Shown here one piece after another: positions 12,148 to 15,624 of a DNA stretch of 16,348 nucleotides (positions are counted from its first letter, which is position 1; each line of letters begins with the position of its first letter). Location: the NCBI GenBank assembly GCA_001797815.1, contig MGQK01000032.1, positions 2,828 to 19,175 on the forward strand, written 5' to 3'. Position numbers and translations under genes: made by a program. The notes below the pieces were generated by a model that saw only the letters and a list, made by a program, of their open reading frames with translations, was not told the origin of the DNA and ran no database searches. Origin of the DNA: Deltaproteobacteria bacterium RBG_13_61_14. Its GTDB lineage: Bacteria > RBG-13-61-14.

Positions 12148-12286
12148 GGTTGGCGGTTGGCGAAGCGGAGGCGACAGTTTACGGTTGGCGCTTGGCGGAA
12201 GCACCCTTTCCGGGTCGCCCACCCTCGGGTCGGCGGGAGGGTGGGCTTTCTTTTTTCCGCCAACTGCCGACCGCCAACTGCCAACT
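12148..12286. repeat. Inverted 7-nt tandem repeats framing a terminator
   Basis: Left tract (12148-12196): seven 7-nt units in register. Four are GGTTGGC or GCTTGGC and three are degenerate. Right tract (12259-12286): four units, GCCAACT three times and GCCGACC once, which is the complement of the left unit. The bases 12183-12198 can pair with 12257-12272 at 13 of 16 positions, nesting the 12217-12246 terminator inside a longer imperfect stem. The left tract begins three bases after the ctpA stop and the right one ends five bases before the next ATG. Confidence 0.75.
12217..12256 (+). terminator. Strong intrinsic terminator after ctpA
   Basis: A perfect 10-bp stem, GCCCACCCTC (12217-12226) with GAGGGTGGGC (12237-12246), has a 10-nt loop and is followed at once by TTTCTTTTTT (12247-12256). 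It is the clearest terminator in the window. Confidence 0.88.
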
Positions 12287-13512: not shown

Positions 13513-13537
13513 GTTTCTATCATAAGGAGTGGAAGCG

Positions 13538-13542
13538 AGGAG
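13538..13542 (+). promoter_or_regulatory. Ribosome binding site deciding the DUF362 gene start
   Basis: AGGAG lies 7 nt before ATG 13550. The longer frame beginning at GTG 13529 has AAGGA directly abutting it with no spacer, so 13550 is preferred. The resulting N-terminus is a cleaner Tat signal. Confidence 0.6.
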
Positions 13543-13549
13543 AGAGGAA

Positions 13550-14746
13550 ATGAAAGTCCATCGCCGTTCCTTTTGCCAGGGTCTGGGCGCCGGCCTGCTG
13601 GGAGCTAGCCTGGCTCCGTGGCAAGTGCGCGGCCAGAGCGAGGAGGTGATGCCCATGCTCAAAGAAACATCCGAAGCAGTCTATGTGCAAGGCCTTCCCC
13701 GCGGCGCCTCCGCCGAGCAAATCCTGCAAGCGGTCCGCCGAACGGCGGAAGCCGCCACTGATTTCTCCTGGCTCTCCCAAGGCGACACGGTCCTGCTCAA
13801 GCCGGCCGCCAACTCCAAGAACCCCTACCCTGCCACCACCTCTCCCCTGGCCGTGGCCGCCATGGCCAAACTCCTCAAGGAAAAAGGCGCGGGCCGGGTC
13901 ATCCTCTGCGACAAGGCCGGCGTCCAATCGGTTTACCAGACCCCGGACCGCGTGCGCGGGTCCACCCGCCAGTGCTTCCTCAATAACGGGCTCCACCCCG
14001 CGGCCCTGGACTCCGGCGCCGAGGCGCTCTATTTCGAAGAGACCCCTTACGACTCCTTTTTCAGCGACACCCCGCCGGTCGGCTCGCATTGGAAAAACGG
14101 GATCTGGATGCCCGGCGTCATCCAGCAGGCCGACCACATCGTGCTGCTCCCGCGCGTCAGCCGCCACGTGCTCGCCGGTTCCACCCTCGCCCTGAAAATG
14201 GCCATCGGCTGGCTGCGCGACGACTCGCGCCTGGAACTGCACCGCGACGCCGCCACCTTCTACCAGAAGATCGCCGAAATCCACCACCTCCCCTCGATCC
14301 AAAAGCGGCTGCGCCTCACCTTGACCGTGGCCACCCAAGTCCTGGCCTCCTTCGGCCCGGACTTTGGCACCGTGGCCGAGCCGGACCCCGGCCTGGTCTT
14401 CGCCTCGACCTCGCTTGTTGCCCACGACCTGATCTCGCTCTCCTGGCTCTTGTGGTGCCGCGAACACGCGGTCCCGAAAAGCGCCCTCGGCTTTGCCCGC
14501 GATCCCTACCAGACCTTCCCCGGCGCCATGAACCGGGCCTTTGTCGGCACGATCTGGGGTCTTTCCGAGATGCTCCACAGCCAGACCTTTGACCCGGTCC
14601 GGCTCCGCACCGTCTGGGACGATCCGGTGCTCCGCCGCGCGATCGAGATTGAAAACGGCGCGCCTCGGCTTGATTTGCAGATCCTGGACCAAAGCGTGAG
14701 CGAAACGGTGCAGGAACAAATCAACGCCTACCTGCTTGCCCCGTGA
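13550..14746 (+). CDS. Tat-exported DUF362 domain protein
   Basis: 398 aa from ATG 13550. The N-terminus HRRSFCQGLGAGLLGASLA has twin arginines, a hydrophobic core and a later small-residue region, typical of a Tat signal; cleavage is probably near residue 30. The mature part matches DUF362: GDTVLLKPAANSKN, then TTSPLAVAAMAKLLKEKGA and RVILCDKAG, where relatives have LLKPN and a pattern ending ViigE. Many DUF362 proteins carry ferredoxin-type cysteine clusters. None is seen here: cysteines are few and scattered. Tat export suggests folding, or a cofactor acquired, in the cytoplasm. The function of the family is largely undefined. The gene begins 37 nt after the deacetylase stop on the same strand and is probably co-transcribed with it. 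Confidence 0.8.
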   Translation: MKVHRRSFCQGLGAGLLGASLAPWQVRGQSEEVMPMLKETSEAVYVQGLPRGASAEQILQAVRRTAEAATDFSWLSQGDTVLLKPAANSKNPYPATTSPLAVAAMAKLLKEKGAGRVILCDKAGVQSVYQTPDRVRGSTRQCFLNNGLHPAALDSGAEALYFEETPYDSFFSDTPPVGSHWKNGIWMPGVIQQADHIVLLPRVSRHVLAGSTLALKMAIGWLRDDSRLELHRDAATFYQKIAEIHHLPSIQKRLRLTLTVATQVLASFGPDFGTVAEPDPGLVFASTSLVAHDLISLSWLLWCREHAVPKSALGFARDPYQTFPGAMNRAFVGTIWGLSEMLHSQTFDPVRLRTVWDDPVLRRAIEIENGAPRLDLQILDQSVSETVQEQINAYLLAP

Positions 14747-14885
14747 ACCTGCGCGTGAACGTGAACGATTTCCGCAGGTCGTAGATCGGGGAAGACCGCC
14801 AACCGCGAACTCTTCTCCGCCCGCGACCAACGGGAGCGGGCCATATTTCAACCGGCGGCAGCTGGGAAACTGCACCATTTTTACA

Positions 14886-14891
14886 TATAAT
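14886..14891 (+). promoter_or_regulatory. Consensus -10 box in the spacer
   Basis: An exact TATAAT lies in an AT-rich patch 22 nt before the ATG of the doubtful small frame. The hexamer 17 nt upstream (TGGGAA) is a weak -35. It might drive a short RNA through the repeats. Confidence 0.35.
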
Positions 14892-14897
14892 AGAGAA

Positions 14898-14932
14898 GGA
14901 TGAAGGGTGAATTATGAAGGCTGAAATTGGAA
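14898..14932 (+). repeat. Five tandem 7-nt units (NNNTGAA)
   Basis: Four consecutive heptamers end in TGAA (GGATGAA, GGGTGAA and two more), followed by a fifth degenerate one ending GGAA, all in exact 7-nt register. The period is the same as in the repeat around the ctpA terminator, with a different sequence. Confidence 0.6.
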
Positions 14933-15004
14933 AAGAAATCTATTATCTAACCTGGCGATTTATAATGGCTTTGGGGGTTATTTTGACCGGGTGCGCGGAT
15001 CGGC

Positions 15005-15026
15005 GCGCGGCTGGGGTCAGCCGCGC
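15005..15026. repeat. REP-like hairpin, copy 1
   Basis: A perfect 9-bp stem, GCGCGGCTG (15005-15013) with CAGCCGCGC (15018-15026), has a 4-nt loop GGGT. Outer arms GTGCGCG (14991-14997) and CGCGCAC (15034-15040) can extend it. Its core is repeated in inverted orientation at 15104-15119. Confidence 0.65.
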
Positions 15027-15101
15027 CCCCGGTCGCGCACAACTTCTTGAAAATTCTTGCCAAATTTTTTTATTAAATGTGCTTCACTCTGACCTGAGTG
15101 G

Positions 15102-15121
15102 TGCGGCTGCCCCCAGCCGCA
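15102..15121. repeat. REP-like hairpin, copy 2 (inverted)
   Basis: An 8-bp stem, TGCGGCTG (15102-15109) with CAGCCGCA (15114-15121), has loop CCCC. Read on the minus strand, its 16-nt core matches copy 1 (15008-15023) at 15 of 16 positions. A small 5-bp stem (15085-15089 with 15096-15100) lies just upstream. Confidence 0.65.
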
Positions 15122-15213
15122 GATGGGTGCGACTTTCCACCCCCATAATGACCCATCCCCTGTCCGAATCGCCCTAACTACGACACTATTCTTCCTAATC
15201 CAGACGCCTTCCG

Positions 15214-15276
15214 CACCCATAAAAACACGATCCCCACCCATAAAAACACCATTCGCACTCATAAAAGCATGAACTG
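15214..15276. repeat. Three 21-nt direct repeats
   Basis: Copies at 15214-15234, 15235-15255 and 15256-15276 share a CACCCATAAAAACAC-type core. Copies 1 and 2 match at 18 of 21 positions; copy 3 is more diverged. There is no spacer between units, which rules out a CRISPR array. A minus-strand frame reads them as repeats containing VFMG, but nothing else supports coding. Confidence 0.65.
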
Positions 15277-15286
15277 TTCCGCCTCT

Positions 15287-15324
15287 AACTTAACATTGGG
15301 GTCAGGCCCCAAAACTTAACATTG
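15287..15324. repeat. Palindrome flanked by 12-nt direct repeats
   Basis: AACTTAACATTG occurs at 15287-15298 and again, identical, at 15313-15324. Between and overlapping them is the hairpin TTGGGG (15296-15301), loop TCAGG, CCCCAA (15307-15312). From memory, GGGGTCAGG-type hairpins near ends of REP-associated transposase elements look similar, but no transposase is present. Confidence 0.6.
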
Positions 15325-15418
15325 AAGATGATCCGAAGTCATTCATGAGACCTTTTGTCAAGTTTTTTGATTCCTGAGACAATTTAGACCCGAAATTCGT
15401 TTGCGGTTTGAACTTGAC

Positions 15419-15460
15419 CCTCCGTCCTCTCCGGGTGCTCTGTGCTCTCCGTGTTAAACT
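15419..15460. repeat. Degenerate CTCCGTG / CTCTGTG tandem tract
   Basis: Imperfect units (CTCCGTC, CTCTCCGGGTG, CTCTGTG, CTCTCCGTG) run head to tail and end in TTAAA. Their spacing of 7, 9 and 11 nt is irregular. It looks like a decayed simple-repeat tract. Confidence 0.4.
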
Positions 15461-15575
15461 CTTAATTTTATTTCCTCGCGGATTGGCGGCTGGGCGTGCC
15501 GACCGGTCTGGCTTTCGGGGGCAAGATGATTTACAATTGGCTTTAGGTTGTGATCGCCAAAATTTTCGCATCGAG

Positions 15576-15603
15576 GTAGGGGCATGGCATGCCATGCCCC
15601 TAC
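15576..15603. repeat. Perfect 28-bp palindrome upstream of xseA
   Basis: The half-site is GTAGGGGCATGGCA, followed without spacer by its exact reverse complement. It ends one base before the GGAAGGA that is the probable xseA ribosome site, and it contains an in-frame alternative ATG (15589). It is likely a REP- or MITE-type element, or possibly a protein-binding operator. Confidence 0.85.
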
Positions 15604-15624
15604 GGAAGGACCGTAACCGATCAG

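Follow-up and report, generated by a model that had tools for sequence, protein, structure and literature searches.

A dispersed element with the layout of a putative small transcription unit lies decayed in the repeat-rich spacer before xseA of Deltaproteobacteria bacterium RBG_13_61_14

The stretch of DNA analysed here (henceforth the window, 16,348 nucleotides) carries an S41 peptidase gene, a polysaccharide-deacetylase gene, a DUF362 gene (13529–14746) and xseA, the last of these preceded by a long spacer. Among relatives of the same order, xseA was found in one genome (G001), where it directly follows the deacetylase gene, with neither DUF362 nor the spacer between them. The DUF362 homologues of G001 and of a second relative (G002) lie at other places. 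It follows that either one lineage gained the DUF362 gene and the spacer at this locus or the other lost them.

A preliminary description, made from the sequence alone, had listed a series of short repeat units in this spacer, and every one of them is present at or near the place given for it. A search of the spacer against its own genome (a 4.74-Mb draft in 132 contigs, whose assembly may have collapsed identical repeats) returned 66 matches and showed nearly all of the listed units to be multi-copy. The pattern of matches partitions the spacer: about a dozen loci match 14867–15282 as one block, with 71–82% identity, and shorter parts match separately. Dispersed repeats have piled up in the spacer. 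The largest part, 14867–15282, makes up half of it, and this large element is itself interrupted and flanked by palindromes of the REP/RAYT type and by short tandem tracts. The units had been called unrelated, which cannot be maintained throughout: the heptamer tract, the 21-nt repeats and the stretch linking them are parts of a single element of about 420 bp with some 40 further copies.

Successive insertion at a tolerant site, one of the possibilities raised in the preliminary description, fits the data: the families are dispersed and multi-copy, and G001 lacks the spacer. The narrower view that the spacer is nothing more than a tolerant gap gathering unrelated short repeats agrees with the presence of several independent families and again with G001, but a single element, found some 40 times as a block, occupies half of the spacer. 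As an account of the whole spacer we consider it very improbable: the block-wise copies contradict it for 14867–15282, and it is true of the remainder. When ten repeat families were scored at 49 sites bearing the head of the element (described below), the window spacer ranked first with eight of the ten (mean 2.6; upstream control stretches 0.23), a ranking biased upward because several of the families were chosen for occurring in this very spacer.

Among the smaller components, a GTGAAC hexamer tract detected by TRF (14742–14767) runs from the 3′ end of the DUF362 gene into the spacer, and similar tracts occur near other copies of the element. The same is true of two heptamer tracts elsewhere in the window, GGTTGGC and GCCAACT (12148–12162 and 12259–12286), in the gap that separates the S41 peptidase gene from the deacetylase gene. 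A separate dispersed repeat of about 47 bp (14819–14865, + strand), which ends in a GGCGGCAGC hairpin, abuts the element on its left. It has matches on contigs C127, C33, C56, C41, C22, C45, C118, C129 and others in the same genome, and several further copies of the element have it in this same position. In many head copies the left flank holds a hairpin or a short repeat that stops at one and the same base just before the head, whichever family it belongs to, an endpoint that might reflect insertion beside repeats or, instead, hairpins that insulate the element from upstream.

To the right of the element lies a repeat of the form AACTTAACATTG-GGGTCAGGCCCC-AAAACTTAACATTG (15287–15324), in which a palindrome (15298–15310) is placed between two copies of AACTTAACATTG (15287–15298 and 15313–15324). 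The same kind of repeat is found directly on both sides of a RAYT-type Y1 transposase gene on contig C34 (L180, 25297–28029), so that it flanks such a gene as RAYT-associated repeats do. Y1 transposase-domain matches number 19 in this genome, the two relatives having 5 and 6; two shorter ones on contig C130 (L196 and L197) have GCGGGTG..CACCCGC palindromes on both sides. Further along the spacer are a degenerate CTCCGTG-type tract (15420–15453, + strand), with 30 genome sites at no more than one mismatch and none for the reversed-pattern control, and a perfect 28-bp palindrome, GTAGGGGCATGGCATGCCATGCCCCTAC (15576–15603), found on at least eight other contigs at 96–100% identity. This palindrome is multi-copy and starts with GTAG, as GTAG-tagged REPs do; its GTAG pairs with the terminal CTAC. 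By definition the tag of a GTAG-tagged REP is not base-paired and stands at one foot of a short stem-loop (PMC3733652).

The element itself is represented in the window by a decayed copy of what we call type A (14867–15282, + strand). Aligned copies share one architecture. A 26-bp head, AAACTGCAMCATTTNTACATATAWTA, leads into purine-rich heptamers; a second conserved block (TAACC..) stands near position 81, and a variable stretch separates this block from the tail, which is made of 21-nt units. In the window the head reads AAACTGCACCATTTTTACATATAATA (14867–14892, + strand) and is promoter-like, with TATAAT at 14886–14891; it is near-invariant across types A, B and C. The heptamer tract, of GAAGGAT type (14895–14925, + strand), was delimited by TRF and by the alignment of copies, and combines purines resembling a ribosome site with a start codon; some type B copies have two additional heptamers. 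Type A tails have units like CATTCTTCCTTACCACGACAC (12 sites in this genome, none in G001 or G002), and types B and C the unit CCCCATTCTGCACAGCAACCA, usually four times. A few divergent types are also found among the head sites.

The family appears to be confined to this genome. A model of the head finds 41 sites in it at E ≤ 1e-4. The 59 other genomes scanned with this model, two of the same order among them, gave none, but at their distance they cannot show that closer kin lack the element. A strict 20-nt head motif gave 36 sites, with none in G001 or G002 and none for the reversed-pattern control. Scanning 84,980 genomes with the head pattern yielded one match only, in a Ruminococcus record, which we take as chance given the number of random matches expected, and neither the head pattern nor the tail pattern of type B matched any of the viral contigs. 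An apparent match to the element in G001 proved to be just a heptamer tract.

From its sequence we infer a promoter role for the head. Some head matches stand without the rest of the element, one of them (L131; C80:35090–35123, − strand) about 20 bp upstream of a 434-codon frame beginning with GTG; the position of this lone head at C80:35103 is compatible with such a role. The idea that the whole element serves as an attenuator of the downstream gene was rejected, the right-hand neighbour lying on either strand about equally often (neighbour genes being called roughly, by ORF length only).

Between the ATG of the heptamer tract and the tail, 28 of 30 copies keep a stop-free frame, where dinucleotide shuffles would expect 2.2–4.8 stops. 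In disjoint close pairs of copies, 4 new in-frame stops were counted against 17.2 expected, and three of the four fall in offset-frame pairs, leaving a single real one (L085); the other two sense frames gave 21 new stops against 16.9 expected and 13 against 17.2. A combined probability of 1.1e-8 calculated for these pairs refers to the case of no stop in any of them and is set aside, four having been counted. A BLOSUM-weighted substitution score was likewise highest in this frame (z 5.5, against 1.3–3.6 in the five other frames). These coding tests were devised once the ORFs had been seen, and they compare copies that share ancestry. The open frame is kept against stops, as in a protein-coding family, and pN/pS in it is 1.01 for type A, 0.62 for B and 1.00 for C, from which it follows that the amino acids are, to judge by these ratios, hardly conserved. 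Synonymous counts across whole ORFs showed no excess, a Pfam search with eight of the ORFs gave no match, and the frame that runs through the tail varies from copy to copy. An antisense frame through the tail, open in several copies, was discarded as coding, its support by the BLOSUM-weighted score being no better than that of controls. Our reading is that the frame is probably held open while the peptide itself is under little constraint.

The same observations bear on the alternative that the element is a selfish, non-autonomous mobile repeat with no coding role, moved by a transposase acting in trans, its open frame a by-product of the scarcity of stops on a C- and T-rich strand. The copies are many and dispersed, with differing flanks and no orientation bias relative to neighbouring genes, the genome is rich in Y1 transposase domains as given above, amino-acid constraint is weak and a second frame is likewise open in several of the type B copies, all of which speaks for this alternative. 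It is harder to reconcile with the avoidance of stops in one frame and not in the other two sense frames. No transposase is tied to the element, and no recent, near-identical copies appear among the aligned pairs, the closest being about 95% identical, although the assembly may collapse such copies. Terminal inverted repeats, the mark of a MITE, were not seen either: with AAACTGCA.. at one end and ..GAACTGTTCCGC or ..CCACCCCAG at the other, the element does not close with an inverted copy of its start. We regard pure mobility as possible but rather unlikely.

The tail of the window copy (15125–15282, + strand) is built of units with a 21-nt period, C-rich and G-poor on the + strand, and includes three 21-nt direct repeats at 15210–15272. 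Across the family, 21 is the best period at 38 of 46 scored sites, with the tail at the same place and usually four to five units. In an alignment of 11 type A copies the tail shows no indel over 158 columns despite at least 127 substitutions; the remainder of the alignment, with at least 277 substitutions, is broken by 13 separate gap blocks. A published criterion for Rho utilisation (rut) sites asks for 78 nt with C above G and with C spaced at 11–13 nt (PMC6407284), and all 36 tails tested satisfy it on the sense strand. The C/G ratio over 78 nt has a median of 5.7 in the tails, compared with 1.4 in random flank controls (99th percentile 3.7) and 0 on the antisense strand, and mean predicted folding energy is −12.4 kcal/mol in tails against −31.7 kcal/mol in flanks. 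Given these 36 tails, their low folding and the Rho homologue encoded in the genome, Rho-dependent termination at the tail is a reasonable inference. A rut site does not require exact 21-nt spacing or a constant number of units, which counts against this reading. The strict 21-bp period, equal to two helical turns, the usual four to five units and the freedom of type A tails from indels would instead suit a phased array of binding sites for a DNA-binding protein, e.g. a chromosome-organising or partition-like site to which the head also belongs. We judge such an array improbable: its units differ strongly among types, no binding protein is known, and both the strand asymmetry and the arrangement of head and ORF would be left unexplained.

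The copy in the window is a decayed one. It is one of only two among the 30 with an in-frame stop before the tail, and what remains of the frame (14914–15177, + strand) is 87 codons long, stopping early and not in register with the tail. Two REP-like palindromes lie inside the element, GCGGCTGGGGTCAGCCGC (15007–15024) and GCGGCTGCCCCCAGCCGC (15103–15120), both reading GCGGCTG-N4-CAGCCGC and belonging to a family, GCGGSTG-N4-CASCCGC, with 79 sites in the genome and none for the reversed-pattern control. The second palindrome forms a strong fold peculiar to the window copy.

A structured RNA, another suggestion of the preliminary description, is not supported. The + strand of the window copy does fold better than its shuffles (z −3.45), as a regulatory RNA conserved for its structure would, but this fold arises from the inserted palindromes, and a palindrome-free copy scores near zero (z 0.60 and −0.32). 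Across 11 copies the covariation term is unfavourable and no covarying base pairs were detected, single folds of both strands and consensus RNA folding gave no conserved structure, and neither Rfam nor tRNA scans found anything. A conserved structured RNA is, in our estimation, extremely improbable.

The family, its architecture, the open frame of most copies and the nested palindromes are direct results of the computation. The reading that in our view best accommodates them, with a probability of roughly 55%, is that 14867–15282 represents, in decayed form, a dispersed cassette specific to this lineage, which when intact is a small transcription unit, its function and mobility being putative. 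In an intact copy the head would act as promoter and the purine-rich heptamers as a ribosome site with its start codon. The translated product would be a peptide of about 85–130 residues with a hydrophobic N-terminal stretch. In the RNA, the C-rich, G-poor and poorly folded 21-nt tail would serve as the Rho utilisation site that ends the transcript, and translation may also run through it in whatever frame is open there, giving repeats of 7 residues in the peptide. The window copy would no longer function in this way and would persist as inert spacer. More tentatively, the genome may hold around 40 such self-contained mini-genes, specific to it and spread through its intergenic DNA, each with its own promoter, an open but freely drifting peptide frame and a Rho terminator of 21-nt repeats.

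Dispersed repeats of bacteria are usually palindromes or remnants of transposons. A fixed promoter-like head joined to a frame protected from stops but lax in its amino acids, and to a C-rich tail of fixed length, would make this an unusual case, in which selection may keep translation or termination itself rather than the sequence of a peptide. With many diverged copies in one genome, the idea can be tested by expression mapping.

The element invites comparison with several known systems. BOX is likewise a small, non-autonomous dispersed bacterial repeat, with tens of modular intergenic copies. MITE-like repeats, RPE (PMC10969869, PMC2229807) and STAR (PMC3532100) share with the element tens of intergenic copies, a length of a few hundred bases and modular parts. 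The element differs from these and from BOX in that no terminal inverted repeats are seen in it and in its promoter-like head, maintained frame and tail of 21-nt period. REP/RAYT systems (PMC3733652) are similar in their dispersed intergenic palindromes and Y1 transposase genes, one RAYT gene here being flanked by the 15287–15324 repeat; the 420-bp element, unlike them, has no terminal palindrome or linked transposase, and its internal palindromes belong to another family. The tandem repeats of Borgs (PMC9879509) also comprise 21-nt and other units readable as peptide repeats, but those are perfect, A-rich and found in many unrelated genes, whereas the units of the element are diverged, C-rich and confined to one place in one family. 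With known Rho utilisation sites (PMC6407284) the tail shares a minimum length of 78 nt, an excess of C over G, C residues at regular intervals and little structure; it differs in that the candidate site is made of repeated 21-nt units and occurs some 40 times in one genome.
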